Part shown: positions 3,199-21,864 of the stretch, piece after piece | Position numbering within the stretch: the first letter of the stretch is position 1 | Layout of the letters: each line of letters opens with the position of its first letter | Assembly: GCF_021233435.1 (NCBI RefSeq) | Contig: NZ_CP089469.1 | Span: 62,001-126,000 of the forward strand | Direction of reading: 5' to 3' | Source of the DNA: Halobacterium noricense | GTDB taxonomy: Archaea > Halobacteriota > Halobacteria > Halobacteriales > Halobacteriaceae | DNA: 64,000 nucleotides | The notes under the pieces: generated by a model | What the model saw: only the letters and a program-made list of their open reading frames with translations | The model's database searches: none | What the model was told of the DNA's origin: nothing | Program-made: the position numbers and the translations under genes

Positions 3199-3612
3199 TC
3201 ACGCGTGCGCTTCGATCACGGAGCGAAGCTGCGCTTCGTCTTGCATCCCGACGAGTCGTTCCGCCGGCTGGCCGTCAGCGAACAGGACGAGGGTCGGAAC
3301 CCCTCTGACCCCGTACTCTGCGGCGAGTTGCTGATTCGCGTCGATGTCGATCTTCGCTACGGTCGCATCGGTCTCGGCCGCGATCGTTTCGACGACTGGT
3401 TCGAGCATCTGGCACGGACCACACCAATCGGCATAGAAGTCGGCTAGCACGAGATTGTACTCGGCGACAGTTTCGGACAGCTCGGCGCCGCTGTCGATAT
3501 GGATCGGTTCGGACGGGCTCTTCAGGGTGGACGCCTCAGCACCGCCCGTTTCAGCCTTGTTTCGAAGCTCCGCCAGTTTCTGTCGACGGATCTCCTCGAT
3601 ATCTTCAGCCAT
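3199..3612 (-). CDS. trxA: thioredoxin
   Basis: 137 residues. After an N-terminal extension of about 45 charged residues comes a full thioredoxin fold with the WCGPC active site near residue 65 and the cis-Pro block GVPTLV near residue 105. It reduces protein disulfides in the cytoplasm using electrons from a thioredoxin reductase. The N-terminal extension is common in haloarchaeal thioredoxins. It lies between the HTH regulator upstream and the DUF7522 gene downstream, all on the minus strand. No signal peptide is visible, which sets it apart from the membrane-anchored CTYC protein at 11920-12402. Confidence 0.93.
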   Translation of the reverse strand: MAEDIEEIRRQKLAELRNKAETGGAEASTLKSPSEPIHIDSGAELSETVAEYNLVLADFYADWCGPCQMLEPVVETIAAETDATVAKIDIDANQQLAAEYGVRGVPTLVLFADGQPAERLVGMQDEAQLRSVIEAHA

Positions 3613-3695
3613 TAGGTGTCCGTTTGAACCGCGCCGCCTTATTTGTTTTGCATAACTCGCACAATACTGCCTCGGTGGGGTTTGAACGATAGGGG

Positions 3696-4115
3696 TCAGA
3701 GACAGGACTCAATCGACTGCTTCTCTCGGCCCTCCGGGTCTCGGCAGTACCGGTCTTCGAACTCCTGAATAAGCTGTCCGATGGCCGCATACCAATCGTT
3801 GAGCAATCGCTGCATGTCATGGGCAACTTCCTCTGGTGCCCGCGAACGATACACGTAGTAGTACCCTCCGTGCTCGTAGTTTACTTGCTCCTGAACTACC
3901 ACGCCGGCCTCAAGGAGCCGAGAAATCGAACGGTACGCAGTCGAACGCTCACAATCCATTCGATCTGCGACGTCGTCGACCGTGAGATCCCCCTCTGCCT
4001 GTTGTAGCAGCTGAAATACCATCTGATCCCGCTCGTTGAGCCCGTGGACGCAGCCCAAGAGGTCGAGGCACCCCAGGTCGCGCTCGAGGTCCTCACGCAC
4101 TGATGTGGCCACCAT
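3696..4115 (-). CDS. winged-HTH transcriptional regulator (TrmB/MarR-like)
   Basis: 139 residues. The central part (DLTVDDVADRMDCERSTAYR, then a wing) is a winged helix-turn-helix that spans roughly residues 40-90. It is followed by a helical C-terminus rich in Tyr and by a Cys near the end. Three further Cys residues (two in GCLDLLGC near the start, one in MDCERS) may sense thiols or metal. It is transcribed divergently from the DUF302/methyltransferase pair and upstream of trxA, so it is a good candidate for controlling both. Ligand unknown. Confidence 0.75.
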   Translation of the reverse strand: MVATSVREDLERDLGCLDLLGCVHGLNERDQMVFQLLQQAEGDLTVDDVADRMDCERSTAYRSISRLLEAGVVVQEQVNYEHGGYYYVYRSRAPEEVAHDMQRLLNDWYAAIGQLIQEFEDRYCRDPEGREKQSIESCL

Positions 4116-4275
4116 GTCCGAAAATAAGGTAGCAGAGACGATTAAAGTTGTTCCCGAACACTACAATACTCGGTTGGCAGAATAGGTGCTAAAGTGAGTC
4201 TTTTCCCAGGTTTCTCCGCTTTCGCGAGAGGATACCCGAAGAGACTTTGTCCTGAAGACCCAAGACAATACACGA

Positions 4276-4716
4276 ATGATGCTCCCAATCGACCCGGACC
4301 AGATCGGCTCTGCAGATATCGGTGAAGAACGGGCGACCCTTGAAATGAGCCACGAGGAGGCCGTTGAGCACGTCCGCGAGGTGTTTACGGACGCCGGCTT
4401 CGGCATTCCCGTCGAGTTCTCACCCTCCGAGATGCTTAACGAGAAAGTGGACGCGGACCGCGACCCCTACTACGTGCTCGGCGCGTGCAATCCCGAGGTC
4501 GCCGACCGCGCGCTCGATGCGACCGACAACCGGCTCGGCGCCCTGATGCCGTGCAACGTCGTCGTTTGGGAAGCAGAACCCGGGAAGCAGGTCGTCTACC
4601 ACGTCTCCATCATGCGCATCGCCCGCCTCATCGGGATGGCGCCCGACAACGAGGAGATGGCAGACATCGTCGCCGATACCGGCGAACTCGTCGACGAGGC
4701 GTTCGCGAACCTCTAA
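4276..4716 (+). CDS. DUF302 domain protein
   Basis: 146 residues. The DUF302 fold is visible in GFGIPVEF, YYVLGACNPEVADRAL and LMPCNVVVWE, the last with the conserved PCN motif. Family members are small soluble proteins that often sit beside sulfur or redox genes. No enzymatic reaction is established. The stop codon is followed after one base by the ATG of the methyltransferase gene, so the two are translated from one message. The ATG at 4276 was chosen; another ATG follows immediately. Confidence 0.85.
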   Translation: MMLPIDPDQIGSADIGEERATLEMSHEEAVEHVREVFTDAGFGIPVEFSPSEMLNEKVDADRDPYYVLGACNPEVADRALDATDNRLGALMPCNVVVWEAEPGKQVVYHVSIMRIARLIGMAPDNEEMADIVADTGELVDEAFANL

Positions 4717-4717
4717 C

Positions 4718-5278
4718 ATGGGTCATCACACGTTCGACGCCGACCGCGCCGACAAGCTCGAAGATGCACAACAGCGATACCGGTTCCTCTCCGCGGAGGA
4801 GTTGCTCTGGGCGCTCTCACCGGATGGGGACGAAACAGTGGCAGACCTGGGTAGCGGGACCGGGTTCTACACCGACGACGTGGCACCAACTGTCGACCAC
4901 GTGTACGCCGTCGACATCCAGGAGGCGATGCACGACTACTACCGGAAGAAAGGCGTCCCCGAGAACGTCGACCTCGTGACGAGTGGCGTCGACGACCTCC
5001 CACTCGATACTGGCAGTCTCGACGCTGCATTCTCGACGATGACCTACCACGAGTTCGCAAGCGAGCAGGCGTTGAGCGAAATCAGTCGCGTGCTCACGTC
5101 ACAGGGGACGTTTGTTATCGTCGACTGGGCAGCTTCCGGAAGTGGGAACCACGGCCCACCCGTTGCCGAACGATTTTCGGCCGTCGAGGTTGCAAATGTG
5201 CTCCGCCAGCACGGATTCAATATAGAGTTTCAGGCCGAACGGCCGGAAACGTTTCTGCTGATAGGACATACTAAATAA
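4718..5278 (+). CDS. class I SAM-dependent methyltransferase
   Basis: 186 residues. The Rossmann motifs are VADLGSGTG (motif I, near residue 42), VYAVDIQ (motif II) and DAAFSTMTYHE (motif IV region). This is the methyltransferase domain 11 type, a soluble enzyme that methylates a small molecule or metalloid. Its partner DUF302 gene is one base upstream. The substrate is unknown. The absence of a conserved Cys trio argues against an ArsM-type arsenite methyltransferase. Confidence 0.88.
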   Translation: MGHHTFDADRADKLEDAQQRYRFLSAEELLWALSPDGDETVADLGSGTGFYTDDVAPTVDHVYAVDIQEAMHDYYRKKGVPENVDLVTSGVDDLPLDTGSLDAAFSTMTYHEFASEQALSEISRVLTSQGTFVIVDWAASGSGNHGPPVAERFSAVEVANVLRQHGFNIEFQAERPETFLLIGHTK

Positions 5279-5357
5279 ACCGTCTGGTGCGTTTTGCAGT
5301 AATTTTTCGTAGAATCTGACAAGAACGTGTTCGTGCGCCGATCAGATATAGGAGTTC

Positions 5358-5398
5358 GTAACCAACAATCTAAGTGGGAAATCGCTACTGTTGGTTAA
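5358..5398. repeat. 41-bp dyad module a
   Basis: GTAACCAACA, 21 unconserved bases, TGTTGGTTAA. It is one of four copies in the window with the same arm sequence and exactly the same spacing (others at 30136, 31181 and 32249). It lies between the methyltransferase gene and a degraded coding stretch. Confidence 0.85.
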
Positions 5399-5433
5399 GT
5401 TTCTCTGCGCCCGCGGAAGGGCGGAGGCGCGTT

Positions 5434-5765
5434 CTGACACGTAGCGAGCGGAGGTCCACTACCTCTGGCCGGAAGGCCATATGGTGGAGAAAGTGCTCCA
5501 CGAGCCGCTCAGTGGCCCTGCGGAAGCCGTCGCTCCCGACGGTGGCCGAACAGGCGACGTTCGCGACCGACTGGTCGTCAACGAGAACCCACAGTCGCAG
5601 GACAAACTCGAGCCCCGCACCAAGCGTGCCGTCACCGAAGCGATGGACGTCTCACTCCTCTCAAAAGGGAGCCGCTACGAGGTGCAGTTCGCGCCCGAGA
5701 ACCGAAGCCGGCGCGATTGGAGAAGCGTTCGCAGAATGAGTTACTGCCCCTGTTTCGTTCTCTAA
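5434..5765 (+). pseudogene. degraded stretch: IS1341-end fragment and possible SWIM-type protein remnant
   Basis: Bases 5434-5452 match the sequence next to the relic transposon end at 25358-25376. From 5481 an open frame encodes a segment (LEPRTKRAVTEAMDV..GSRYEVQ) that resembles the start of haloarchaeal SWIM zinc-finger proteins. The expected Cys-x-Cys..Cys-x-His part is absent and the frame ends in an unrelated tail. I treat it as a remnant; it may be a short unrecognised gene instead. Confidence 0.3.
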
Positions 5766-5909
5766 CGCTCAAAGCGTACCACCCTCCTTTCGAAATACGT
5801 CGAAAACTGACGGCAACAACGGCAGACTTGCACCACCAATTGTTCACGCCACTTACCACCAAACTCGAAGTTCAATAGAGCCCTGCCTCGTGACTTCATC
5901 CACGCTCGC

Positions 5910-6284
5910 CTAGCCCGGGCGGGCGTTAATGGTCCCCCAGGCAACGAGCGCCAAGGAGACGACCAGGGATGTCCCCCAGAGGTAGGCGGTCGCCAACAAC
6001 ATGGGTTCGACCGACCGCATCAGCATCGACGCGGGGAGAAGCCACTGTCCAACAATAAATGACCAGACGGCGACCGAGCGGGTGCGCCCCGAAAGAGTTG
6101 TGTGCTCGATACCGAACCCGGCGACAACGGCGAGGATAGACAGCATCCCGAACTGGGCGTGTGCGGTGACCGCCATCGGCGGCATCGTGGGGCCGGCGGG
6201 CGACAGCGCGAACGTCTGGAGCAGTCCCCACAGCGCTTGCACGGTGAGCGCGACGAAGCCCGACACCCGGAGCGTCCACGACAT
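5910..6284 (-). CDS. four-helix membrane protein beside the ccm island
   Basis: 124 residues with four hydrophobic segments, near residues 5-27, 38-60, 68-90 and 97-118. There is a His pair at HAQF and GIEHTT, which could bind haem or metal. It is divergent from ccmE with about 160 bp between. It is not a recognised Ccm component. Its position suggests a role linked to cytochrome c biogenesis or electron transfer, but that is inference. Confidence 0.65.
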   Translation of the reverse strand: MSWTLRVSGFVALTVQALWGLLQTFALSPAGPTMPPMAVTAHAQFGMLSILAVVAGFGIEHTTLSGRTRSVAVWSFIVGQWLLPASMLMRSVEPMLLATAYLWGTSLVVSLALVAWGTINARPG

Positions 6285-6441
6285 TAAGTGACAGATGGTA
6301 CGAGCACGTCAGTGATAAGTCTACGGAGACGACTGGCTGCCGCGTCCAACCCGTAACAGCGACCTGGACGGGTTGACGGCTCTCGGCGGAATGGAATGTA
6401 AAGCCGGTACAGTAATACGCATCCCCAAACATCATCCGGCA

Positions 6442-6816
6442 GTGCGACGGAAGAACAAGCTACTGGTCGCCGGGGTCGGTATTCTTGTGCTCCTGGGCGT
6501 TCTAGGGGTGACGACGATGAGCGCGTCCACCGAGTTTGTAACGCCGACAGCGCTTTCCGAAGACAACAATTACGAGGGTGACTGGGTAAACCTCGAGGGT
6601 ACCGTCCAGAATCTGGACACGAGCGGCGAGCGCACTACGTTCGCCGTAGCTGACGGGAACCACTCTATCCCCGTCACCTACGAGGGGACGCTCCCCGACA
6701 CGATGCAGGAGGGACGGATCGTCGTCGCGAAGGGCCGGTACGCGGATGGCTCCCTGACCGCCCAGCAGCTCTCGGTGCGTGCCCACGAGGGCGAGGAACG
6801 ACCCGACGACGTCTGA
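6442..6816 (+). CDS. ccmE: CcmE-like haem chaperone
   Basis: From the GTG at 6442 the protein has about 124 residues: a basic start, one membrane helix (about 8-27) and an outside OB fold (NLEGTV..FAVAD..VTYEGTLPDTM..RIVVAKGRY). In bacteria CcmE carries haem on the His of an HxxxY motif. Here a His aligns with it in RAHEGEE, but the Tyr position is Glu. The frame stays open upstream to 6373, so the start is uncertain. The stop overlaps the ccmA start (TGATG). It would hold haem outside the membrane for transfer by CcmF. Confidence 0.75.
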   Translation: MRRKNKLLVAGVGILVLLGVLGVTTMSASTEFVTPTALSEDNNYEGDWVNLEGTVQNLDTSGERTTFAVADGNHSIPVTYEGTLPDTMQEGRIVVAKGRYADGSLTAQQLSVRAHEGEERPDDV

Positions 6817-7601
6817 TGAGCGCCGACGAGCCCGCTACCGACGGTAAGAGCACCGGCCCGCCGGCGATAAGCGCCGACAACTTGACGAAGCGTTACGGCC
6901 AGTTCCACGCCGTTGACGGTGTCTCATTCTCGGTTGCGGACGGCGAGACTATCGGGTTCTTCGGGCCGAACGGCGCGGGGAAGTCGACAACCATTCGAAT
7001 GCTCGCTGGGCTCGTGCGGCCGACGGCCGGGTCGGTCCGCTTCGGGGGTGTGGAGCGATCGCTCGGCGACCCGGACGCCACCAGCGGTGTCGGCGTCGTG
7101 ACGCATGACGCGATGCTGTACGACGACCTGACCGCCCGTGAGAACCTCCAATTTCACGCCCGCCTACACGGCGTCGACGGCGTCGACGCCCGAGTCGAAA
7201 CGGTCCTCAACAACGTGGGTCTCGCCGACCGGGGAAGCCAGCGGCCTGCGACATTCTCGCATGGCCTCCAGAAGCGCCTGTCCCTTGCGCGCGCGCTGCT
7301 CCACGACCCCGACGTACTGTTGCTCGACGAACCGTACTCGGGGCTCGACCAGCGCGGTGTTGCCGACCTCGGCCACATTCTCGACGGCATCGACGACAGG
7401 ACCGTCCTCCTATCTACCCATAACCTCAACCTGGGACTGCAGCGGTGCTCGCGAGCGCTCGTCCTTGACCGTGGCCGCGTCCAGGCCGACATCCAGACCG
7501 CGTCCACGTCGCCGGACGAGTTCGAAGCTATCTACCGGCGTGCTATCGGGCTTGACGGCCAGTCGACGGACAACCGCTCCACCGCCACCGACCAGCAATG
7601 A
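6816..7601 (+). CDS. ccmA: CcmA haem-exporter ATPase
   Basis: 261 residues. Walker A is GPNGAGKST (near residue 50), the signature region is FSHGLQKRLSLARAL in place of LSGGQ, Walker B is VLLLDEP and the switch His is in STHN. The FSxGxxKR signature fits CcmA, the ATPase that with CcmB and CcmC loads haem onto and releases it from CcmE. A disordered N-terminal extension of about 20 residues and an acidic tail are haloarchaeal features. It overlaps ccmE at its start and ccmB at its end (ATGA). Confidence 0.88.
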   Translation: MSADEPATDGKSTGPPAISADNLTKRYGQFHAVDGVSFSVADGETIGFFGPNGAGKSTTIRMLAGLVRPTAGSVRFGGVERSLGDPDATSGVGVVTHDAMLYDDLTARENLQFHARLHGVDGVDARVETVLNNVGLADRGSQRPATFSHGLQKRLSLARALLHDPDVLLLDEPYSGLDQRGVADLGHILDGIDDRTVLLSTHNLNLGLQRCSRALVLDRGRVQADIQTASTSPDEFEAIYRRAIGLDGQSTDNRSTATDQQ

Positions 7602-8272
7602 CAAGCTACCTCACCGCCGTCTACCTCGTAATGCGCAAGGATCTCCACCTAGAGGTGCGAACAAAGCAGGTGACGACCACGGCCGCCGTGTTCGCGTTAC
7701 TGGTCGTACTGGCGTTCGCGTTCGGATTCGTGAAGACGTTCACCGACCCTCAGGTCGTCGGGCGGAGCGCGCTCTGGGTTGCGTTCGTGTTCGCCGGCAC
7801 CCTCGGAGTGACTGAAGCGGCCGACGTCGAGGCCCAGCACGCCGCCCTTGACGGCCTACTGCTGGCGCCTGTCGATCGATCGGCGGTGTACGTCGGGAAG
7901 GTCCTCAGCACGACCGCGTTCGTGCTCGCCGTAGACCTCGTCACCCTCGCCGCGACTGGCGTATTCCTCGGGTATGAACTTGCGCTCTCGATGATGCCGG
8001 CGCTCGTCGGCGTGCTCGGGCTGGCCGCATTCGGCTTCTCAGCGGTCGGCGTTGTCGTATCGACGCTGACGTTTCGGTCGTCGCTGGGCGAACTCGTGTT
8101 GCCCGTGCTACTCGTGCCGCTGGTCGTTCCGGTGTTGCTCGCAGGCGTCGAACTTACAGCCGCGCTCACGACCGGCGCACCGACGGGCACGTGGCTCCGT
8201 GTATTGGGTTCGTACGCAGGCATTCTATTCCTTGGCGGACTCGTCACCTTCGAGTACGCCGTCGAGGAATGA
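7598..8272 (+). CDS. ccmB: CcmB haem-exporter permease
   Basis: 224 residues with six hydrophobic segments. The early block MRKDLHLEVRTK and the later DGLLLAPVDRSAVYVGK are typical of CcmB. It forms the membrane channel part of the CcmAB complex, which drives release of holo-CcmE. The start overlaps the ccmA stop by 4 bp. The next gene converges from the other strand 23 bp later. Confidence 0.87.
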   Translation: MTSYLTAVYLVMRKDLHLEVRTKQVTTTAAVFALLVVLAFAFGFVKTFTDPQVVGRSALWVAFVFAGTLGVTEAADVEAQHAALDGLLLAPVDRSAVYVGKVLSTTAFVLAVDLVTLAATGVFLGYELALSMMPALVGVLGLAAFGFSAVGVVVSTLTFRSSLGELVLPVLLVPLVVPVLLAGVELTAALTTGAPTGTWLRVLGSYAGILFLGGLVTFEYAVEE

Positions 8273-8295
8273 GAATGAGCGAAGGGTGGCGCTGA

Positions 8296-9519
8296 TTACA
8301 GCACGCGGTAGGCGACGAGGCCGCCGCCGACCATCACAGCGAGACTGCCGAAGACAGGCATCGTCGGGAACTCAGGGATCGAATTACTCTCCGATGACCC
8401 TGTCTCGGCCATATTGGCTCCACCAGCACTTCCGTTACCGCCGGCCGTAGCGGAGCGCGCGTTCGAGACATCGACCCTGACTGTCTCGTTCGCACTCACT
8501 GGGCCGTCTGACGTGAGAACCGGGACGGGCGAGTCACCAACGCGGAGGTTCTCGGAGTGGTCAACCTCATCGATGTCGTATCCCTGGAACGACACCGCGA
8601 AGCTCTCCGCGTCGCGACGGAGTTGCTTCTCGAACGTTCGGTCGGCGATGTCGTAGGCGACGCCGACCTGTGTGCTGCCGTTCGCGGGGACCGATACGTC
8701 CACAGCGACGCCGCCATCGACGCGCCGGTAGTTGGTCTCTTCACCGGCCGCCATCGCGGAGTACGGCTGGCCGTCCGACGGCACTCCGATGACGACCGTA
8801 CCGGCGAACGGCCGGTCGGCGTCATTCTGGAGGGTGAGCGTCTCCACCACGCCCGTGAGACCCGAGCGATTCTGTGGTGCAAGCACGCGGACGACGTGGC
8901 TGACGGGGTCGCCGCCCATCACCGAGAGCACGCTGGATTCGTTGATGGGCGGCGGCGTCGACACGGTCACATTCTGGGTGCCGCCGTCCGCAGTGGAAAC
9001 CGTTTCGCGATACTGGACGCCGTCGACGGCGACGGCAAGGCGGTACGTCTCGTTCGACTCCAGGGGAGCGAACGCAAACGTCCCGTTTTCGGCCGCCTGG
9101 GTGCGGTCGACCGAGAAGCCGGCTTCGTCGATGAGGCTGACAGTGGTGTTTGGTCGCGGCTCGCCGGCCTCGTCGACTACCTGGCCGGAGATAGCGGCCT
9201 CGAGGTCGATGGTCGCTGTGGAGTCGTTCCGCAGCACCTCGTAGTGGGCGGCGCCGTCGTGGACGACGCGGACGACGTACGCGGGCGAGTCGGGCGCGTC
9301 AACGGAGAAGGTGGTTCCATCGACGGTCGTCCGCACGGAGTTCCCCGTACTGCGCAGGTTTTCGTCGACAGGTGCGACGGTCACGCGAGCGCCATCGGCT
9401 GAGCCGTCCGCAACGGTGACGGTGCCTGAAACTGAGGTAGTCGCTGCAGCGATACTTGGGAGGGCAATGATGCAAGCGGTGAAAACAACGACTGCGGCAA
9501 GAGCGTGCTTATGGTTCAT
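8296..9519 (-). CDS. secreted carboxypeptidase-regulatory-like domain protein, C-terminally anchored
   Basis: About 407 residues from the ATG at 9519, chosen because a Sec signal peptide follows it directly. Two Ig-like carboxypeptidase-regulatory-type repeats (near residues 25-105 and 105-190) are followed by a beta-rich domain. Near the C-terminus comes a Gly/Ser linker, then PEFPT, a hydrophobic helix and a short basic end, which resembles a PEF-CTERM sorting signal. The start lies one base after the ccmF stop, so it belongs to the ccmF transcript. It has no Cys in the mature part and so cannot replace CcmH. Function unknown. Confidence 0.7.
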   Translation of the reverse strand: MNHKHALAAVVVFTACIIALPSIAAATTSVSGTVTVADGSADGARVTVAPVDENLRSTGNSVRTTVDGTTFSVDAPDSPAYVVRVVHDGAAHYEVLRNDSTATIDLEAAISGQVVDEAGEPRPNTTVSLIDEAGFSVDRTQAAENGTFAFAPLESNETYRLAVAVDGVQYRETVSTADGGTQNVTVSTPPPINESSVLSVMGGDPVSHVVRVLAPQNRSGLTGVVETLTLQNDADRPFAGTVVIGVPSDGQPYSAMAAGEETNYRRVDGGVAVDVSVPANGSTQVGVAYDIADRTFEKQLRRDAESFAVSFQGYDIDEVDHSENLRVGDSPVPVLTSDGPVSANETVRVDVSNARSATAGGNGSAGGANMAETGSSESNSIPEFPTMPVFGSLAVMVGGGLVAYRVL

Positions 9520-9520
9520 G

Positions 9521-11923
9521 TTAGTCTGTTGCCTCCGGTTCGACATCGGTACTCGAAGCAGTCGAAGCAGTTAGCGTCTGAATACCGTGCTCGGGGTCGA
9601 ACACGAGCACGGTGGACATCCCTGCGACGAGCAACACGAGGCTGAGCCGCAGTAGGGACATTAACGGCACCTGCTTGACGGTCATCGAGGCAGTGCCGTC
9701 GCTGACGCCTGCGATAACGTAGGTGTCGGTCACGAGTCCCCGGTCGATGAGGACATCCCTGACCTGCATGTTACCTTGCTGGGGGTACTCGCGCTGACCG
9801 GCGACCCCGGAGGTGACAAGTTTCCCGTCCTCGTAGACCGCGAGCGAGACGCCGTCGACTTGAACGCGCGTCGGGACCACACCTTCGGGCGGATTCGCTG
9901 GCGAGCCGATGGCCTGCGGGCTCGCGAGCACCGTCGCGTCGGCGTTCGGCACGAAGTTCCACATCAGCCGGCCGCGTGCGACAAGGCCTTGACCGGTCTG
10001 GACGGAGAAATTGCCCGCAGTCTCGTTGCGTTGGATGACGCCTACCCACGTCCGGGAGCCGTCGAGTTGGATAACCGTCGCCTGTGGCCCCCTTCTGACG
10101 TCAGTGACGGTGCCGTACACCGCCTGTACCGTTCCGTTTAGTGACGGTCCACGAGCGGCCACTTGGTCGGTCGAGAGCGCGTACGACTCAGGCTCGGGGT
10201 TCTGGGGGAACTCGTTGCTGGTGTAGTCCAGCACGCGGACCGAGTAGTCGGTGCCGGCAACGTCCTGATAGGAGGTATCAACGGACTCAGACGCGACGCC
10301 GGTTGCTATCGCTGACGCCTGGCCCGCGAACATATACATAAACGGGAGCGACAGCACGAGTAGCACGGCACCGACATGGATGGCAGTAATTCCTGTCTCC
10401 TTAAACACCGCGCCCCGGTCGGCGGCCGCCGGAATTCGGGCGAGCGCGCGCTTCGTGACGCCAAGAATGGCGTACGCGGCTGGGGGGAGAATCGAGAGCA
10501 CGCTGATACTCCCGAGGACGCCATATATAGGGGATTGAGTCGGAGGCGAAGGATAAAGCTGCCAGATCTCTGAGGGTGCAACGAACGCAGCGACCACGGC
10601 CGCGGTGCCGAAGACGGCTAATCCGGCGAGGCTGCGGCGGCGTCCTTCGACGTCGAAGTCCATGTAGAAACCCAACAACAGCAGCGCGACGCCGACCAAC
10701 GGGTAGCTCCAAAGGTTGAAGTAATGAGACTCCACGGACACTTCGACGCCGGTAACCGCGGCCCGGAGGACAGGGAACGACAGCCCCCAGAGGGAGACGA
10801 ACGTCAGCAGACCGAACAGCAGGACGGCGGCGTGCAGGAGATTGTCCCGCGTGAGCCACGCGCCGTCTGAGCCGGTCGCTTCGTCGTCCTGGAGGAACCA
10901 GTACGCGAGCGGGACGACGACGCCCAAGACGCTAGTCAACACCATCAGGACGATGAACGAGATGCCGATACCGCCGTCGGCGAACGAGTGGACACTCCGG
11001 AACGTCCCGCTGCGGACGATGGAGGTGGTGTAAATTGCGAGCGAGAATACCGTCGCAGTCATCGCGGGCGCGAGAATCCGGTACTCGTCGTTCGGCCGGT
11101 ACCGGACGACGGCGTGGACAGTGGCAGTGAGGAACAACCACGGCACAAGAATGGCTGTCTCCACCGGGTCCCACGCCCAGATACCACCCCAGCCGAGTAC
11201 GGTGTACGACCAGAGGCCGCCGAGCGCCACGGCGACCGTAAGGAACAGCCAGCTGACGCGCAGCCAGCGCGTGACGCTCCCGCGCCAGGCCGCAAACACG
11301 CTTCCGTCACCCCGGAATAGAGAGACGAAGTGCGCGGCGCCGATGGCGAACGGCATTGTGAGCAGCGCGTAGGAGATAAACATCACGGGTGGGTGGATGG
11401 CCATGTACGGGTCGACCAGCAGAGGGTTGAGCCCCTCGCCGCTCGTCGGAATGTACCCCGGTGGCGCGTTCGCGAACTCCGTCCGAATGGACGCGAACGG
11501 GCTCTGGAGCAGTAGCATCCCGACGAAGTACGTGACGATCCCGAACGTGATAGCGTGGACGAGCTTCGAGTGGCGGTCCGGGAACCCGCGGATGACCCCG
11601 GCGGTGAACGCGACCAGCACAGTGAGTGCCGCCCACAGCAAGATCGATCCCTCGTTACCGGCGTACACGCCGGTCACGCGGTACAGCAGCGGGAGGTAGT
11701 CGGCGGTGTTGTTCCACACGTACGCGTTCGAGTAGTCCGTCACCACGAACTGGTACGTGAGCTGGGCCAGGGCGCCGGCCAGCGCTACCGCGCCTGCGCC
11801 CGTGAGTATTGTCACGTACCCGACGTGCCGGTCGTCATCGGCGAGGTACGCGCGGGCAAGAATACCGGTTGCGCCCAGCAGAACGGTGAACGCGGTGGCG
11901 AGCAGGACATTCCCGACGTTCAT
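9521..11923 (-). CDS. ccmF: CcmF cytochrome c haem lyase
   Basis: 800 residues with about 15 membrane helices. The periplasm-facing WWD block reads WGGIWAWDPVE (near residue 250), and His residues in HPPVMF and VHAVVR flank it, matching CcmF haem-binding loops. A large soluble loop lies near residues 530-740. CcmF takes haem from CcmE and joins it to the CxxCH motifs of apocytochromes. The start overlaps the end of the upstream thioredoxin-like gene (ATGA). In this window its clear substrate is the di-haem protein at 12625-13989. Confidence 0.92.
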   Translation of the reverse strand: MNVGNVLLATAFTVLLGATGILARAYLADDDRHVGYVTILTGAGAVALAGALAQLTYQFVVTDYSNAYVWNNTADYLPLLYRVTGVYAGNEGSILLWAALTVLVAFTAGVIRGFPDRHSKLVHAITFGIVTYFVGMLLLQSPFASIRTEFANAPPGYIPTSGEGLNPLLVDPYMAIHPPVMFISYALLTMPFAIGAAHFVSLFRGDGSVFAAWRGSVTRWLRVSWLFLTVAVALGGLWSYTVLGWGGIWAWDPVETAILVPWLFLTATVHAVVRYRPNDEYRILAPAMTATVFSLAIYTTSIVRSGTFRSVHSFADGGIGISFIVLMVLTSVLGVVVPLAYWFLQDDEATGSDGAWLTRDNLLHAAVLLFGLLTFVSLWGLSFPVLRAAVTGVEVSVESHYFNLWSYPLVGVALLLLGFYMDFDVEGRRRSLAGLAVFGTAAVVAAFVAPSEIWQLYPSPPTQSPIYGVLGSISVLSILPPAAYAILGVTKRALARIPAAADRGAVFKETGITAIHVGAVLLVLSLPFMYMFAGQASAIATGVASESVDTSYQDVAGTDYSVRVLDYTSNEFPQNPEPESYALSTDQVAARGPSLNGTVQAVYGTVTDVRRGPQATVIQLDGSRTWVGVIQRNETAGNFSVQTGQGLVARGRLMWNFVPNADATVLASPQAIGSPANPPEGVVPTRVQVDGVSLAVYEDGKLVTSGVAGQREYPQQGNMQVRDVLIDRGLVTDTYVIAGVSDGTASMTVKQVPLMSLLRLSLVLLVAGMSTVLVFDPEHGIQTLTASTASSTDVEPEATD

Positions 11924-12402
11924 TGGTTGTCACCCGCGTCGTACTCGCGCTCGGCCTCTGCGAGGTAATCGAGGAACGCCTCGCGGTCGGCGTACCCGGA
12001 GATTTTCACGAGCTGTTCGCCCTCGGGCGTGATGATGACGTGCTGTGGCGGGTAGTTGGCGTTGTACCGCTGCTGGAGGCGGCCGTATTCGCCCTGGTCG
12101 CTGTCGAGGTTCACCGCTACCTTCACGAAGTCGTCGAGTTCAGCTTGTACCTCGGGGTCAGAGTAGACGTACTGGTTGTAGTCTTCGCAGTACGTACACC
12201 ACGTCGTCCAGAAGTAGACGATAATAGGGCGGTCCTGCTCGCTGGCTAGCTGCTCGGCCTCGGAGAAGTCGGTCCGCCATTCGGTTTCGCCGTGGTACGA
12301 ATAGTTATCGTCGCTCAACACTGGTGCGGAGTGCATCGACAGGTAGCCAATGCCCAGAAGGAAGACGAAGAAGGCGATTGTAAGCGCCTTTCGAGGCTTC
12401 AT
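11920..12402 (-). CDS. membrane-anchored thioredoxin-like protein (CcmG/DsbD-gamma type)
   Basis: About 160 residues from the ATG at 12402. An N-terminal helix (about 5-24) anchors a thioredoxin fold outside the cell with the active site WCTYC and the cis-Pro block YPPQHVII. It resembles the gamma domain of DsbD and CcmG, which keep apocytochrome CxxCH thiols reduced. It overlaps ccmF by 4 bp. CcdA at 14015 would supply electrons across the membrane. Other upstream starts (12423, 12432, 12471) are possible but add only basic residues. Confidence 0.85.
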   Translation of the reverse strand: MKPRKALTIAFFVFLLGIGYLSMHSAPVLSDDNYSYHGETEWRTDFSEAEQLASEQDRPIIVYFWTTWCTYCEDYNQYVYSDPEVQAELDDFVKVAVNLDSDQGEYGRLQQRYNANYPPQHVIITPEGEQLVKISGYADREAFLDYLAEAEREYDAGDNQ

Positions 12403-12624
12403 CGATGTGTGACGCTTTCTCATCTCTCTCATTAAAATGTGCTGTCTGTGAACGACCCGGGGTCGGCGCACGTCAGACGGTCTTTCGTGTGTCCGCTAAT
12501 ACTCCCATGTCCGCAGAAAAGCTTTATTACAGTCGTGTCCACATATTGGAATACCGATTGCGAATACCGCAGTAGCAAGCTGAAATCACCACCGGGACCG
12601 ATGAGCAATATGTAGAGATTTACG

Positions 12625-13989
12625 ATGAGCAAACGAGATTCAACGAGACTACTGAAACCGACGCTGCTCGTGGTCGGAGCGCTCGTCGCGGGTGTTATCG
12701 TCGTCTTCGCCGTCAACGGCGCGTTGGCGTTCATGAGCGACACCGGCGGGGCGCCGTCGGCTATGGAGGGCGACGGCGGTGGCGGCGTCATCCAGCTACC
12801 GGGAACGTGGAGCGGCTCGGAGTGGTACAGTCCGGAACTCCGCGATGAGGGGTTCGAGTACAAGAACGCTTCAGCGGGCGACGAGGTGGAGTTCGTCCCG
12901 AAGGAGATGAACAACTCAACGCTCCCGGAGAACGAGAATCGGCGGGAGCTCGTCCAGTACGGGCGTGAGATCTTCGCGAACACGTCCAACGAGATGCCCA
13001 ACCACGTCGGCAACGAACTGTCGTGTGCGAACTGTCACGGCGGCGGCGACCTGCCGACGACCACCGGTATGGTCGGCCAGGATATCGATATGATTCCGCT
13101 CGTCGGCACCGCAGCCGGCTATCCCGAGTGGACCGGCCGTACTGAGCGGATGCGGGACATGCGCCAGCGCATCATGGGCTGCTTCCTGCGGAGCATGGAC
13201 GCGCCCGGTTCCCCCGAGGGGGTCCCAGCGTACGACAGTCGTGAGATCCAGGCGATGGAGTCGTACATGGTCTGGCTGAACAAGGGCACGCCGAGCCAGA
13301 AGGTGCCGTACTGGCGGCACATCCGGAAGCCCGAGGGCGACGAGAAGGTGAACGTAACAGAAGCCAACCCGGTGCGGGGCGCCGAGCTCTACCTCGAGAA
13401 CTGCGCATCCTGCCACGGCGCTGACGGCCAGGGGACTCCCGGCCAGTATCCGCCGCTATGGGGTGAGGGCTCCTACAACGACGGTGCCGGCATGGGCCGG
13501 CTGTACACGTCTGCCGGATTCATCCGGGAGGCCATGCCGTACGGCACGGCGCACACGTTCACGGACTGGAGGGACGTCCATGACGTCGCCGCGTTCATGA
13601 ACGGCCACAAACGCCCGCACCTCCCACGGCAGCCCAAAGACTGGGCCGAGTCTGGGGCGCCCGACGAGGGGATCTACTACCAGCGCGTTCAGGAGCGGTT
13701 CGGCTACGACATGAACCCGATGACGAAGAAGCTCATGATCGCCGGGATTCCCATCGGCTCCCAGGAGATCAATCAGAGCGTCATCCCTGACAACGTTGAC
13801 CGCTACGACCAGCCCCTCCGTGACGTCGAAGTGAACGGCTCGTGGCAGACCACCTGGATTCGGACGTACGAGGACCACGACAACGGCTGGTCCACGAACG
13901 AGACCGAGTCGAACAACTCAACGTCCACTGACGCGCAAGAGTTGATAGGGGCAGCAATAGACGGCGGCAGTAGCCAGCAGGCAAGCTGA
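12625..13989 (+). CDS. tsdA: TsdA-like di-haem cytochrome c (thiosulfate dehydrogenase)
   Basis: 454 residues. An N-terminal anchor helix (about 11-34) is followed by two cytochrome domains with CANCH (near 134) and CASCH (near 260). Between them lies MGCFLRSM, which matches the TsdA block carrying the axial Cys ligand of haem 1. GAGMGRL..AGFIREAMP in the second domain is also TsdA-like. TsdA oxidises two thiosulfates to tetrathionate, or reduces tetrathionate, at the outer face. It lies between the divergent ccmF operon and ccdA, and halocyanin nearby is a plausible electron acceptor. c-type cytochromes are uncommon in haloarchaea. Confidence 0.82.
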   Translation: MSKRDSTRLLKPTLLVVGALVAGVIVVFAVNGALAFMSDTGGAPSAMEGDGGGGVIQLPGTWSGSEWYSPELRDEGFEYKNASAGDEVEFVPKEMNNSTLPENENRRELVQYGREIFANTSNEMPNHVGNELSCANCHGGGDLPTTTGMVGQDIDMIPLVGTAAGYPEWTGRTERMRDMRQRIMGCFLRSMDAPGSPEGVPAYDSREIQAMESYMVWLNKGTPSQKVPYWRHIRKPEGDEKVNVTEANPVRGAELYLENCASCHGADGQGTPGQYPPLWGEGSYNDGAGMGRLYTSAGFIREAMPYGTAHTFTDWRDVHDVAAFMNGHKRPHLPRQPKDWAESGAPDEGIYYQRVQERFGYDMNPMTKKLMIAGIPIGSQEINQSVIPDNVDRYDQPLRDVEVNGSWQTTWIRTYEDHDNGWSTNETESNNSTSTDAQELIGAAIDGGSSQQAS

Positions 13990-14014
13990 CCGCCGTCCGT
14001 GATTCGCTGACATA

Positions 14015-14707
14015 ATGGTAGAGGCTCCAACTACGTTCGCGGTGTTCGCCGCCGGCATTCTGACGATCTTGACGCCGTGCTGTCTGCCGATGATCCCGGT
14101 ACTCGTAGTTGGGTCGTCAGGCCACTCGCTGCGCCCGGTGGCCATCGTGGCGGGGAGTACGCTCACGTTCACCGTGCTCGGGGTCGCGACTGGGATGATA
14201 GGGTCCGTAACCCCTGACACCGTCCGGTTACCGTTCGCCATCATGATGCTGGCGTTCGGGGCCATAATGGCAGACGACGACCTCAACGAGATGTACTCCC
14301 GGTACGCGTCCCGGCTGTCAGGACGCGCGTCGGCTGCGAGCACGCGGATCGACAAGGACGAGCGGCCGCTGACAAACGCGTTCGTCGTCGGCCTCCTGCT
14401 CGGGGTTATCTGGCTACCGTGCGTCGGTCCCGTCCTTGGGGGCGTGCTCGCGCTCGCCGGAACGACCGGTGACGTTGGGCGGAGCGCATGGCTGTTGTTC
14501 ACCTACGGTGGCGGCTTCTCAGTGCCGCTGCTCGGGGTGGCCTACGCCGGTAAGCACGGTGTCCGGCGGATCTTCAATTCCGTCACTGAGGGTGTCTCGG
14601 GGGACGCGGTCCAGACAGCGACCGGGTACACGTTCCTGGCATTAGGCGTGGCCGTCCTCTTCGACGTGGACAAATTGCTGCTTGCGTCAATCGTTGAGTA
14701 CCTATGA
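14015..14707 (+). CDS. ccdA: CcdA/DsbD-type transmembrane thiol-electron transporter
   Basis: 230 residues with six membrane helices. The paired redox motifs are TPCCLPMIP in helix 1 and LPCVGPVLGG in helix 4, which are diagnostic for CcdA. It passes electrons from cytoplasmic thioredoxin to the outside thioredoxin-like protein used in cytochrome c maturation. It lies 25 bp after tsdA and 10 bp before ccmC, in one likely transcript. Confidence 0.9.
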   Translation: MVEAPTTFAVFAAGILTILTPCCLPMIPVLVVGSSGHSLRPVAIVAGSTLTFTVLGVATGMIGSVTPDTVRLPFAIMMLAFGAIMADDDLNEMYSRYASRLSGRASAASTRIDKDERPLTNAFVVGLLLGVIWLPCVGPVLGGVLALAGTTGDVGRSAWLLFTYGGGFSVPLLGVAYAGKHGVRRIFNSVTEGVSGDAVQTATGYTFLALGVAVLFDVDKLLLASIVEYL

Positions 14708-14717
14708 GAGCACACGC

Positions 14718-15491
14718 ATGAGTTCGGACGAGATTGAATCGACGACCGATCAAGCAAGCGAGCGGTCCCAGAGTCTGCGGCTCGGACAGCTGGTCGGACG
14801 TGTGACCCGCGTGCTGCGTGCGGTGATCATGAGCCGCGTCGTGAAGTGGGGAGCGCTGGTGTCAGGCGTGGCATCGTTCGTACTGGTGTTCGGTTCCGCG
14901 TCGGACGTGATGTACGGCGTCTCCCACGGTGGAAACCTGCTGGCGTATTGGCACATCGCGCTGGCATGGGTGGCGGCATCCGCGCTCGGGACGACGTTCG
15001 TCGGCAGTGCGCTCTACCTTCGGTACCGGGGAGCGTTCTGGAGCCGGCTCGCGCACAGCGCGGGTGAACTCGGATTCTTGCTCGTGACGCTGACGCTGCT
15101 GTTCGGGAGTTTCTGGGGGAAGGTTATCTGGAACTCCTACTGGGAGTGGACGGACGTGCGGCTGGTGACGTTTCTGGTCGTGTGGTTCATCTACGCGGGC
15201 TACCTGGTCGTCCACGCTGGTACCGATGGTGGCAGCGGCGACCGATACGCCGCCGTCTACGGCGTGCTTGGCTTTATCACAGTGCCTATCTCCTACGTCT
15301 CGACGCGGCTGTGGACGCCGACATTTCACGAGACGACGCTGGGGAACCCGGACGTGAGTGCGAATATCGACCCGACGACGCTACTGGTGTCGCTGCTGGC
15401 GGCGTCGCTACTATACCTCTACCTACTCGGGCTCCGCATACGGCTGCACGAACTCGAAGACGACCTCGCGGCACGCCAGCAACGGAGGTGA
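14718..15491 (+). CDS. ccmC: CcmC haem-handling protein
   Basis: About 257 residues from the ATG at 14718. A hydrophilic start of about 40 residues precedes six membrane helices. The tryptophan-rich block FWGKVIWNSYWEWTDVRL (near residue 145) matches the CcmC haem-binding WWD motif, with His residues on either side. CcmC places haem on CcmE. The stop is 4 bp before the ATG of the tiny ccmD gene. Confidence 0.85.
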   Translation: MSSDEIESTTDQASERSQSLRLGQLVGRVTRVLRAVIMSRVVKWGALVSGVASFVLVFGSASDVMYGVSHGGNLLAYWHIALAWVAASALGTTFVGSALYLRYRGAFWSRLAHSAGELGFLLVTLTLLFGSFWGKVIWNSYWEWTDVRLVTFLVVWFIYAGYLVVHAGTDGGSGDRYAAVYGVLGFITVPISYVSTRLWTPTFHETTLGNPDVSANIDPTTLLVSLLAASLLYLYLLGLRIRLHELEDDLAARQQRR

Positions 15492-15495
15492 CATA

Positions 15496-15615
15496 ATGGA
15501 ACCACTGCTACTGGCCGGCTACACGGCACTGTTCGTGACGCTGTTCGGGTACGTGGCGTACCTGCAGCGGCGGATGGAACACCTTGAGCGCCGTCTCGCC
15601 GACCTCGACGACTGA
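15496..15615 (+). CDS. ccmD: CcmD-like small membrane protein (39 residues)
   Basis: One hydrophobic helix (about residues 4-21) is followed by a charged amphipathic tail (QRRMEHLERRLADLD), the CcmD layout. CcmD stabilises the CcmABC-CcmE complex. The gene lies 4 bp after ccmC. It is short, but position, topology and tail composition all agree. Confidence 0.7.
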   Translation: MEPLLLAGYTALFVTLFGYVAYLQRRMEHLERRLADLDD

Positions 15616-15667
15616 AGTCACGCCAACGACCAATAGCTTATTGCCATTACATGGTTCATACACTATT

Positions 15668-16366
15668 ATGAATTCGAGTGGTAACGGGGGAACGACGGCA
15701 GCCGGCCGCCGGGCGTTCCTTAAGAGAGCAGCGCTGGTGACCGGCGCCGCCGCAGCGGGCGGCACAACCGGAACAGTCACGGCCCAAGAGGGACAGAGTT
15801 ACGACGGCTGGCTCGCCAACACGAGTAACTTCGACGGAACCTACGACTACACGGGCCAAGATCAGGTGACTGTCTGGGTCGGCGCATCCGGCAACGGTGG
15901 GAACCTCGCGTTCGGTCCGGCAGCGATCCGCGTCGATCCCGGCACCGAAGTCGTCTGGGAGTGGACAGGCAAGGGCGGCACCCACAACGTCGTCGACAAC
16001 GCGGGGAACTTCGAGAGCGACACGTACAGCCAGGCTGGCGAGACGTACTCACGGACGTTCGAGTCAGAGGGGACGTACAAGTACCTCTGTGTCCCTCACC
16101 AGTCGATGGGGATGAAAGGCGTCGTTGTTGTCGGCGGGTCAGGCGGATTGGATCCAAGCGAGTTCGAGAAACCTGCCTCGGCCAGTGGCTCCGGCGATGG
16201 CAACGGAGCGGGTGGTGACGGCTCGTCCAACGGTGGAAACGGCCGACCGATATCCCTGGAGGCAGCTCTGATGGTGACTAGTGTGGCAATAGCGTTCCTC
16301 TCGCCCATCATGTTCGGCCTGTTCCTGATGTTCGACGACAGTGACGACACTGCCGCCGCCGAGTAA
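15668..16366 (+). CDS. halocyanin, Tat-exported and C-terminally anchored
   Basis: About 232 residues from the ATG at 15668. A Tat signal (GRRAFLKRAAL) is followed by one plastocyanin-like domain. The copper ligands are visible: His in THNVV, then Cys, His and Met in LCVPHQSMGM. A Gly/Ser linker and a C-terminal helix near residues 200-222 tether it. It is a mobile or tethered one-electron carrier outside the cell. Next to tsdA and the ccm genes it is the likely acceptor for thiosulfate electrons on the way to a terminal oxidase. The spacing to ccmD is 52 bp. Confidence 0.9.
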   Translation: MNSSGNGGTTAAGRRAFLKRAALVTGAAAAGGTTGTVTAQEGQSYDGWLANTSNFDGTYDYTGQDQVTVWVGASGNGGNLAFGPAAIRVDPGTEVVWEWTGKGGTHNVVDNAGNFESDTYSQAGETYSRTFESEGTYKYLCVPHQSMGMKGVVVVGGSGGLDPSEFEKPASASGSGDGNGAGGDGSSNGGNGRPISLEAALMVTSVAIAFLSPIMFGLFLMFDDSDDTAAAE

Positions 16367-16439
16367 GCGCCACTGTCGGCGACCCATCTAATGTTCGACG
16401 ATAAGATGCACACCGCTAGCGCGGCTGAACCAGGTGACA

Positions 16440-16620
16440 CAAGCAAGTGACATCCGCCGCGCCGTGAACGGTGCGGCTTCCCTTGACAAAGGGAACCCGG
16501 CCTGGTACCGGTTGGTTCCAGGACTTGCTCTTCCGAGGTCGGCGGGGTAGGTTTTCGGCCCTTCGCTAGGGAGCGTCCTATGGCCCTGTCACGGGGGCTC
16601 CCATCTGTCACCGAGTCATC
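16440..16620 (-). mobile_element. relic of an IS1341-type element: tnpB end and right-end hairpins
   Basis: The sequence at 16446-16500 has the two-hairpin layout of the tnpB right ends elsewhere in the window: TGACATCC, then a GC hairpin with GTGAA in the loop, then TTCCCTT-GAC-AAAGGGAA. Behind it a minus-strand frame of about 50 basic residues looks like the tail of a TnpB. No transposase core remains. It could still make a short structured RNA. Confidence 0.4.
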
Positions 16621-16775
16621 GCCCCGCGGTTTCTCAACGTGTCTCTCTCCGTGGCGGTCGCGTGGTTCGAGGGAGCGAATCGCTCCCTCGTCGTTTTCGG
16701 TGTTAGTGGTACTATTGGCCTCTTCCTTGCAGGAGCGCCGGGTGCGGCCATATTAGGCGTTCTCGGTGTTGTGGT

Positions 16776-19025: not shown

Positions 19026-20597
19026 TCACTCCAGTCGCTCTTCGAGGGTGCACTCAATTGCGTCGTCGACGAGTCCTTCTTGGACGAGGTCCACCACCGC
19101 GTCGATGTCGTCGTGTAGCGGTCGGTCCGCCTCGACGGGTGGAGAGACCTCCCGCACGAGGTCGTAGACAGCGCTCGTGCCAGCAGCGTGTTCGAGGTCG
19201 TCGTCGAGGAACTCGCTGGCCTGGGCGGCTACGAGGAGTTCAACGCCGACGACCGTCCCGGCTTTCTCGGCAGCCTCGCGGAAACCGTACGCGCTCCCCG
19301 CGCTCATACTCACGTGATCTTCCTGGCCGCCGGAGACCGACGTGTTGTCCGTCGAGGGGCGGCCTAGCGACCGGAGGTCGTTGATGAGTGCGGCGGCCGT
19401 GTACTGGGGAATCATCAATCCCGAGTGGAGGCCGCTGTCGGGCGTGAGGAACGGCGGCAGGTGGGATTCCTGGACGTTCGGGTTGAGCATGCGGTCGACG
19501 CGGCGTTCGCTGATGGCCGCCAGTTCTGCGAGCGCGGTCGCGGCGTAGTCGAGGCGGAGCGCGAGCACCTCGCCGTGGAAGTTCCCGCCGGAGACGACTG
19601 CTGCGGTGTCGGTGCCGCTCGCGCGCGGGTCCGCCGACTCGGCGTCGAAAACTAGGGGGTTGTCAGTCGCGCTGTTGAGTTCGGTCTCGATGGCGTCTCG
19701 GAGGTGGTCGAGCGCGTCTCGGACGGCGCCGTGGACTTGGGGTAGACACCGGATAGAGTAGGCGTCCTGGACGCGGTCGCAGTTCCGGTGGCTCTCCACG
19801 ATCTCGGAGTCCGCGGTGAGGCGCTTGACGTTCCGCGCGCTCGCCGCCTGGCCGTCGTGGGGACGAACGCGCTGGACGGCAGCGCTGCAGTTCGCGGTCG
19901 TCGACATCGTTACTTCCGTGGTGAGCGCGCCCGCGGCGTCAGCAGCACGGAGCGCGCGCTCGCCGTCCAGAAGGGCGAGCGCGGCCAGCCCAGTGGTGAG
20001 TTGGGTGCCGTTAATGAGCGCCAGCCCCTCCTTCGCGCGCAGCGTCACGGCCTCGAGGTCAACGCGTGCGAGCGCCTCATCGCCGGGAAGCCGGTCGCCG
20101 TCGACGTCGGCCTGTCCCTCGCCAATGAGCACGAGCCCGAGATGCGCGAGTGGCGCGAGGTCGCCACTTGCGCCAAGGCTGCCCCGGGAGCGAACAACTG
20201 GGTGGACGCCAGCGTTCAGCATCCCAGCAAGCAGGTCGACAATGCGTTCGCGGACTCCCGAATAGCCCTTCACGAGTGCGTTCAGCCGCGTGAGCAGGAG
20301 CGCACGCACCTCCTCGCGGTCAAGCTCGCGGCCCGCGCCCGCGGCGTGGCTGCGCAGGAGGTTCGTCTGGAGGGACTCGACCTCGTCGCGTGGAATCTGG
20401 GTATCGACGAGCTGGCCGAACCCCGTATTCACGCCGTAGACCGGGTCACCAGCCTCGACGACATCCTCGACGCGCTCCCGCGAGCGGCGCACGGCCTCCC
20501 GGTCGTCGTCGGCGATACCGACGGTGGCGTCCCGGCGTGCGACCGCCTCGACGTCTTCGGGCGTGAGCGTTTCGCCGTCAACGACGACGTCACTCAC
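19026..20597 (-). CDS. hutH: histidine ammonia-lyase
   Basis: About 523 residues from the GTG at 20597, which overlaps the hutI stop by 8 bp (the frame is open to 20636). The Ala-Ser-Gly triad that forms the MIO electrophile is in SLGASGDLAPL at residues 143-145, and YGVNTGFGQ near residue 54 is the conserved substrate-loop block. It removes ammonia from L-histidine to give urocanate, the first step of histidine degradation. It is the last gene of the hutU-G-I-H operon. Length and motifs are normal. Confidence 0.95.
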   Translation of the reverse strand: MSDVVVDGETLTPEDVEAVARRDATVGIADDDREAVRRSRERVEDVVEAGDPVYGVNTGFGQLVDTQIPRDEVESLQTNLLRSHAAGAGRELDREEVRALLLTRLNALVKGYSGVRERIVDLLAGMLNAGVHPVVRSRGSLGASGDLAPLAHLGLVLIGEGQADVDGDRLPGDEALARVDLEAVTLRAKEGLALINGTQLTTGLAALALLDGERALRAADAAGALTTEVTMSTTANCSAAVQRVRPHDGQAASARNVKRLTADSEIVESHRNCDRVQDAYSIRCLPQVHGAVRDALDHLRDAIETELNSATDNPLVFDAESADPRASGTDTAAVVSGGNFHGEVLALRLDYAATALAELAAISERRVDRMLNPNVQESHLPPFLTPDSGLHSGLMIPQYTAAALINDLRSLGRPSTDNTSVSGGQEDHVSMSAGSAYGFREAAEKAGTVVGVELLVAAQASEFLDDDLEHAAGTSAVYDLVREVSPPVEADRPLHDDIDAVVDLVQEGLVDDAIECTLEERLE

Positions 20598-21864
20598 GGC
20601 CGACCACCCGTCCGTCGTCGGCAACGACGACGCCATCCTTGAGGACAGTGTCGACGCAGTTCACACCAAAATTGTAGGGGATGTGGACGTGACTCGGGCC
20701 GTCCACGACCGCGACGTCGGCGGCCGTGCCCTCACGGAGCGTGCCAGTACCGTCGTCGCGGTCGAGCGCGAGCGCGGCATCCCGCGTGGCGCCGACGAGC
20801 GCGTCTCCGGGTGCCATCCGCATGCCGTTGCAGGCGAGCGCGACCGCGAAGCCCATGCTCTGGCTGTAGCAGTTCGGGTTCAGGTCGGTTGCAAGCGCGA
20901 CCGGCGACCTGCTCCGATCGTCGCCTGCCGCCCGGAACTGTTCGGGGTCGGCGTAGTCCTCGCCAAGCGAGAACGCTGTCCCCGGCAACAGGACAGGTAC
21001 GACGCCCGCTTCCGCGAGCGCTTCGGCGTCGTCCTCATCGGCGTGCAGGAGGTGGTCCGCGCTCACCGCCTCGAGGTCGGCTGCAAGCTGTGCGCCCCCG
21101 AGGCGCGTGAACTCCTCCGCATGAATTTTCGGCTTCAGGCCATGCTCGCGGCCTGCCTCCAGCACACGACGAGACTGCTCAACGGAGAACACGCCCTCTT
21201 CGCAGAACACGTCGCAGAACTCCGCAGCCGGGTGGTTGGCGGCGACCGGCAGCTGCTCATAGACAACCTCGTTGACGTAGTCCTCGGTGTCCTGGCCGTC
21301 GGGAACGGCGTGTGCACCCATGAACGTCCCGACAACGTCGACCGGGTGGTTGGTGCCCGCACGCTCGATGGCGTCCAACAGCCGGCGCTCAGTATCCACA
21401 TCGAGGCCGTAGCCGGTCTTGACCTCCGCAGTCGTCGTGCCGTGCGAGAGCATCAGATCCAGCTGGGCCTCGAGGTTCGCGGCAAGCTCCTCGGTGCTTG
21501 CATCGCGGACGGCCTCAACGGTCCGGAGGATGCCGCCACCCGCCGCAAGAATCTCTTGGTAGGTCTTCCCACGGAGCTTCGCCGCGAACTCGTCACTGCG
21601 GTCACCCGCGAAGACGGCGTGCGTGTGCGGATCCACAAACCCCGGAATCACGGTCTGTCCCCCAGCGTCGACAGCAGTGTCAGCGTTCTCGCGGGGATAC
21701 TCGCGAGTCACCGCGTCGCTATCCCCAACCGTCACGACGTCGCCATCGATAGCGGCGATGGCGGCGTCCTCGCGGGTCTCAAGCGCGCCGTTCGCACTCT
21801 CGGATTCATTGGGGCCGACGACAACCTCCGCGGCATCGTAGACGACTGTCAAGTGCTCAGACAT
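20590..21864 (-). CDS. hutI: imidazolonepropionase
   Basis: About 424 residues from the ATG at 21864. Amidohydrolase metal ligands are visible in [14 protein letters not shown] (near residue 70) and later His blocks ([17 protein letters not shown]). [12 protein letters not shown] is a typical HutI block. It hydrolyses imidazolone-5-propionate to N-formimino-L-glutamate in the third step. It overlaps hutG by 8 bp upstream and hutH by 8 bp downstream, so translation is coupled. Confidence 0.94.

Follow-up and report, generated by a model that had tools for sequence, protein, structure and literature searches.

Gene content of the locus

The DNA considered here is a 64,000-nucleotide stretch (hereafter, the window, with its own position numbers) of Halobacterium noricense (GCF_021233435.1, NZ_CP089469.1, positions 62,001-126,000 of the forward strand), contained in a 368,639-base contig that constitutes a secondary replicon of this haloarchaeon. 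It carries a cassette (6391-15615) in which a di-haem cytochrome c of the TsdA family is encoded together with CcmE-A-B, CcmF, CcmC-D, CcdA and a membrane thioredoxin; a halocyanin gene comes next (Table 1). The whole points, with good probability, to a membrane-anchored thiosulfate/tetrathionate TsdA whose two haems are attached by a System I that is in large part its own.

All the genes listed in the original prediction (a TsdA-like cytochrome, CcmA-F, CcdA, a membrane thioredoxin and a halocyanin) were found in place by domain matches and open reading frames (ORFs), and a conserved gene that it had overlooked, encoding a beta-sandwich protein, lies next to that of CcmF. Pfam cut-offs were passed by CcmB, C, E and F, while CcmA, B, C, E and F stayed below those of NCBIfam, CcmA only slightly, and its position between CcmE and CcmB is kept across cassettes. 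CcmD presents the reverse situation, i.e., Pfam fails to recognise the ORF and the NCBIfam model TIGR04391 does, with 31.5-38.7 bits (cut-off 24) in the five haloarchaeal sequences scanned, from both TsdA- and MauG-type sets; comparison of the CcmD profile with the PDB gave chance-level matches only. The membrane-anchored thioredoxin has a probable CcmG role, and the copper ligands of the halocyanin (His, Cys, His and Met) can be read in its GTHN and CVPHQSM motifs.

Table 1. Genes of the cassette and associated genes, in positions of the window.
Feature	Position	Strand	Evidence
CcmE, haem chaperone	6391..6816	+	PF03100 54.8 bits; conserved His in SVRAHEG
CcmA, ATPase of haem-release complex	6816..7601	+	PF00005; TIGR01189 125.9 bits, cut-off 131.6
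CcmB, membrane subunit	7598..8272	+	PF03379 78 bits
Beta-sandwich protein, membrane-anchored, extracellular, with carboxypeptidase-regulatory-like domain, downstream of CcmF	8296..9519	-	PF13620
CcmF, cytochrome c haem lyase	9521..11923	-	PF01578; WGGIWAWDPVE motif; TIGR00353/TIGR03145 187-191 bits, below cut-offs
Membrane-anchored thioredoxin, WCTYC	11920..12429	-	PF13899; kept beside CcmF
TsdA-family di-haem cytochrome c, N-terminal membrane anchor	12625..13989	+	PF21342, PF00034, PDB match
CcdA / DsbD transmembrane-domain thiol transporter	14015..14707	+	PF02683 69.9 bits
CcmC, haem handling, WGKVIWNSYWEW motif	14718..15491	+	PF01578 74 bits; TIGR01191 75.3 bits, cut-off 186
CcmD, 39 aa, one transmembrane helix	15496..15615	+	TIGR04391 38.7 bits, cut-off 24; kept after CcmC
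Halocyanin-type copper protein, twin-arginine-like N-terminus, C-terminal anchor	15668..16366	+	PF00127 67.4 bits
Thioredoxin (associated gene)	3199-3612	-	
Winged-helix regulator (associated gene)	3696-4115	-	
DUF302 (associated gene)	4276-4716	+	
Methyltransferase (associated gene)	4718-5278	+	

The cytochrome is a member of the TsdA family

Sequence comparison places the 12625-13989 product in the TsdA family. Since the CxxCH pattern occurs in the window at chance level (4 found versus 2.7 expected), a motif count was discarded as evidence and the cytochrome assignment rests on homology. Both CXXCH sites lie in a single long ORF, where PF21342 and PF00034 score above cut-off, and its nearest solved structures are those of the thiosulfate dehydrogenase of Allochromatium vinosum (4v2k and others, E ~1e-35). 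Haem 1 corresponds to CANCH (134-138; C134) with the axial C186 within QRIMGCFLRSM, and haem 2 to CASCH (260-264; C260) with the axial M304. None of these residues (C134, C137, H138, C186, C260, C263, H264 and M304) varies, whether among the 21 haloarchaeal sequences compared or in a set that combines them with bacteria. R172 and R182 are likewise invariant in the 21 haloarchaeal TsdA sequences, and align with positions 82 and 92 of A. vinosum TsdA (AvTsdA), counted from its Cys96.

In a quick maximum-likelihood tree, the cytochrome falls on the TsdA side of the split between SoxA and TsdA (SH-aLRT 99), so the phylogeny that the original prediction had proposed as a check groups it with TsdA rather than outside. 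The same tree gathers all haloarchaeal TsdA plus one bacterial sequence (from Salinivenus) in a single group with support 100, whose stem is long (1.45 changes per column) and is the place where, according to the warning of the tree program, long branches meet.

One CcmF for each cytochrome

The survey sample for TsdA, MauG, CcmF and CcmE comprised 391 haloarchaeal genomes (surveyed genomes and fetched loci are labelled with G- and L-numbers, respectively). TsdA was found in 26 of them, a MauG peroxidase in 14 and CcmF in 40, the search for CcmE returning the identical 40 genomes (42 copies). The 43 copies of CcmF are distributed among 28 TsdA, 14 MauG and one multihaem locus; thus, CcmF copies match cytochromes one for one, in agreement with the dedicated System I originally proposed, and the statement that c-type cytochromes are uncommon in haloarchaea also holds, those with Ccm being present in 40/391 genomes. 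A single genome (G037) has both TsdA and MauG, and a single one (G346) has neither despite its CcmF. Within this sample CcmF always appears beside a c-type cytochrome, except in G021, where the cytochrome lies elsewhere in the same fragmented genome.

G037 has two CcmF, each adjoining its own cytochrome, and only one CcmC and one CcmE. From these sequences, CcmF looks like a client-specific lyase served by a shared haem export. With each haem lyase apparently serving a single cytochrome, the recognition exerted by CcmF becomes cleanly testable.

The gene set is retained in the fetched TsdA loci as three blocks whose order varies (CcmEAB; beta-sandwich protein-CcmF-thioredoxin; TsdA-CcdA-CcmC-CcmD). 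The exceptions are the TsdA locus of G037, which has no CcmEABCD, and loci truncated where a contig stops (L069, L071/L072). TsdA-type cassettes are accompanied by the beta-sandwich protein, which was present at 0/7 other CcmF loci checked; a fold search with it gave generic multi-domain beta-sandwich matches only (query TM-score <0.3), from which no function was gained.

As a separate observation, the multihaem locus of G346 (L059, G346:C1:2695000-2714999) has two ORFs, 290-2113 (+) and 4622-5530 (+), with eight and four CxxCH motifs, respectively, near Ccm genes. According to Kletzin et al. (2015), haloarchaea are not known to possess multihaem cytochromes (PMC4429474).

The kind of System I present in haloarchaea

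CcmE from haloarchaea has an invariant His within (V/I)(R/K)(A/S)H, with E, D or N as the next residue, in 42/42 sequences, and neither a Tyr at +4 of that His nor a Cys in the motif was seen in any of them (0/42 in both cases). Proteobacterial CcmE reads AKHDExY in 14/14 sequences, and that of the bacterium Salinivenus reads KCPSKY. The haloarchaeal protein matches the OB fold of E. coli CcmE (8ce8, 1sr3; Z 12.5-13.1); sequence alignment puts the conserved His in register with H130, and structural alignments put it either there or one residue later. It is the sole invariant His of the region, where no Cys is available. In E. coli holo-CcmE, the haem iron is coordinated by Tyr134 (PMC3884852).

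A study from 2022 described CXXXY as universal in archaeal CcmE and ccmD as absent in archaea (PMC9084895). To judge from the sequences, both universals fail for haloarchaea, although a 2006 source may already mention the exception; these two all-archaea statements are thereby to be corrected. Measured against a bacterial-type System I, CcmA, B, C, D, E and F are present, and what was not found is the HXXXY of CcmE and CcmH, which (as PF03918) scored above cut-off in 0/32 haloarchaeal genomes, this one included, controls such as E. coli being positive. Measured against the archaeal Ccm variant, neither a CXXXY CcmE nor the loss of CcmD is observed. Haloarchaea might have a third kind of System I, with a His-only CcmE, CcmD kept, CcmH lost and an own CcmF per cytochrome, a proposal to which we give an even chance. 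If true, it would represent a natural form of one-client haem attachment in which the specificity of the lyase could be tested.

Duplication and transfer of the cassette

The cassette lies in a duplicated block (5521..16675), unmentioned in the original prediction, whose second copy is found outside the window (C2:234026-245182) and is 96.4% identical. Both copies are intact and under purifying selection, with a ratio of non-synonymous to synonymous divergence (dN/dS) of 0.00-0.38 in every gene. The synonymous divergence (dS) between them is 0.016-0.045 over tsdA-ccdA-ccmC-ccmD and 0.07-0.18 on either side, the mismatch profile dipping over those same genes, and gene conversion is a possible cause of that low divergence. 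A small ORF at 5910-6284 (-), of 124 aa, membrane-like and with no family match, is kept in both copies (dN/dS 0.086) and was not found beside other cassettes. Each cassette copy is preceded upstream by a second repeated block of 11.3 kb, with 95% identity between its copies (~C2:50917-62244 plus window 1-244, and C2:205000-216327), so that the replicon either contains a large, old duplication or arose by fusion of two related plasmids. The ~180 bases at one edge of the cassette block (window 5521-5704) are 89-93% identical to sites on 24 haloarchaeal plasmids from many genera, sites annotated as a hypothetical protein, and a megablast search of plasmids with the block matched just its first 184 bases.

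Present in 26/391 genomes, in several haloarchaeal families and on both plasmids and larger contigs, and in none of the 12 further Halobacterium genomes sampled, the cassette behaves as the transferable unit that had been suggested. The donor lineage of TsdA that the original prediction hoped to find did not emerge, the nearest bacteria besides Salinivenus being <=40% identical. Salinivenus iranica (Bacteria, Rhodothermota) has a TsdA of the haloarchaeal type, 58% identical to that of the window, and no ccm genes were found near it. This sequence is nested within the haloarchaeal group beside that of G021 (support 97), which suggests a transfer from haloarchaea to the bacterium.

Relatives of the four associated genes at 3199..5278 adjoin some cassettes in other genomes. 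Elsewhere in the window, on this insertion-rich replicon, a histidine-use cluster (19026-24525, -) comprises genes for a HutH-like aromatic amino acid lyase, an amidohydrolase, an arginase-family protein and urocanase, and a 793-aa ORF (25448-27829, +) has a family match (TENA/THI-4/PQQC) confined to its last 200 residues.

Proposed mechanism and alternatives

In the proposed model, an extracytoplasmic, membrane-anchored TsdA would couple thiosulfate and tetrathionate at the Cys-ligated haem 1, and electrons would leave it via haem 2, to be accepted by the adjacent halocyanin where one is present. For the assembly of the cytochrome, CcmABCD would load haem onto CcmE through its His, the usual Tyr being absent, the CXXCH cysteines would be held reduced by the thioredoxin and CcdA, and CcmF would attach the haem without CcmH, perhaps aided by the neighbouring beta-sandwich protein. 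The sequences themselves show that the cytochrome belongs to the TsdA family, which genes accompany it, how CcmF and cytochromes pair and what motifs they carry; catalysis, its oxidative direction, the part assigned to each Ccm protein and the halocyanin partnership are presumed from what is known of these families.

Some observations weigh against this model. Haloarchaeal TsdA has Ala or Ser just ahead of the haem-2 Met (Lys208 in AvTsdA and Asn254 in CjTsdA, from C. jejuni), so the direction can be transferred from neither enzyme. YeeE-type transporters are not enriched, being found in 21/26 TsdA genomes versus 13/13 MauG genomes and 34/39 others, so genome-wide thiosulfate uptake lends no support. 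Regarding the halocyanin, it adjoins the cassette here and in a total of just 6/26 genomes, which makes it a plausible, not a general, partner, likely to accept the electrons in those genomes where it adjoins the cassette. The original interpretation thus stands as to the TsdA family, the dedicated System I, its rarity and the mobile block, and is weaker as to the halocyanin. In favour of the model, the second copy of the cassette is adjoined by genes for DUF6691, YeeE, TauE, rhodanese/MBL, TusA and DsrE2, most of which, DsrE2, TusA and rhodanese/MBL among them, also lie beside the cassettes of a Halorussus halophilus plasmid and of two more genomes, this module being found at 0/11 other CcmF loci; the window copy retains beside it just the thioredoxin, the regulator, DUF302 and the methyltransferase.

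The direction could also be the opposite, with the same enzyme being a tetrathionate reductase in anaerobic or microaerobic respiration that receives electrons from the halocyanin or by a quinol route. TsdA enzymes are bidirectional, CjTsdA is a working tetrathionate reductase, and residue 254 of the latter influences the direction, its N254G variant favouring reduction (PMC5146829), at the very position where the Lys of AvTsdA is replaced by Ala or Ser here. Nonetheless, the haem-2 Met, whose loss harms oxidation most in CjTsdA, is invariant in haloarchaea, and the DsrE/TusA and rhodanese/MBL neighbours suit the handling of thiosulfate-derived sulfur equally or better, so that a reductase seems somewhat unlikely. 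A change of substrate, by which the cytochrome would act in a SoxA-like manner on other sulfur compounds (e.g., protein-bound or organic thiols), is quite improbable: even though PF21342 spans SoxA and TsdA alike and the stem of the haloarchaeal group is long, both haem domains share one polypeptide as in TsdA, the tree groups it with TsdA against SoxA, the Arg pair of AvTsdA is retained, and none of SoxX, Y and Z was seen among the genes of this neighbourhood.

It is also unlikely that the Ccm set is a general-purpose one, placed next to the cytochrome merely through the clustering of horizontally moved genes. The set is indeed partly shared in G037, with its one CcmC and one CcmE for two cytochromes, and the MauG sets employ related Ccm machinery (their CcmF is 43-45% identical to that of the window). 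However, no CcmF in the sample lacks its c-type cytochrome (in G021, within the same fragmented genome), G037 retains two CcmF, each by its own client, and a PF00034 scan of the genome of H. noricense found no further cytochrome c domain. The model of a TsdA with its largely private System I is a pointer to thiosulfate/tetrathionate cycling by archaea in brines, for which, as for the activity of any haloarchaeal TsdA, no test was found in the literature.

Comparison with known systems

The haloarchaeal cytochrome shares with AvTsdA and CjTsdA its two c haems, the axial Cys at haem 1 and the axial Met at haem 2, and differs from them in the Ala/Ser replacing Lys208/Asn254, an N-terminal anchor or lipobox, a long C-terminal tail and a private Ccm set. 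With respect to its maturation, the streamlined Ccm of Methanosarcina acetivorans (PMC9084895) is also a System I without CcmH, but the haloarchaeal one has a CcmE whose motif carries a His but no Tyr in place of CXXXY, a CcmD, a single-chain CcmF, and a thioredoxin and CcdA inside the cassette. The likeness to the CcmABCDEFGH of E. coli comprises CcmA, B, C, D, E and F, the CcmG/CcdA-like genes and the fold of CcmE, and, unlike that system, there is no CcmH, CcmE has no counterpart of Tyr134 and the set adjoins a single client cytochrome.

The pairing of TsdA and Ccm in haloarchaea is already known since Kletzin et al. (2015), whose "cluster 28" groups TDH homologues of five haloarchaeal species, encoded operon-like alongside ccm genes, an acquisition from bacteria being inferred there (PMC4429474). 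One passage of that work describes the cluster with a monohaem domain, whereas two haem sites are found here. Relative to the cluster 28 passages of that source, what is added here is the one-to-one count, the difference in the CcmE motif, the presence of CcmD and the apparent specificity of CcmF.

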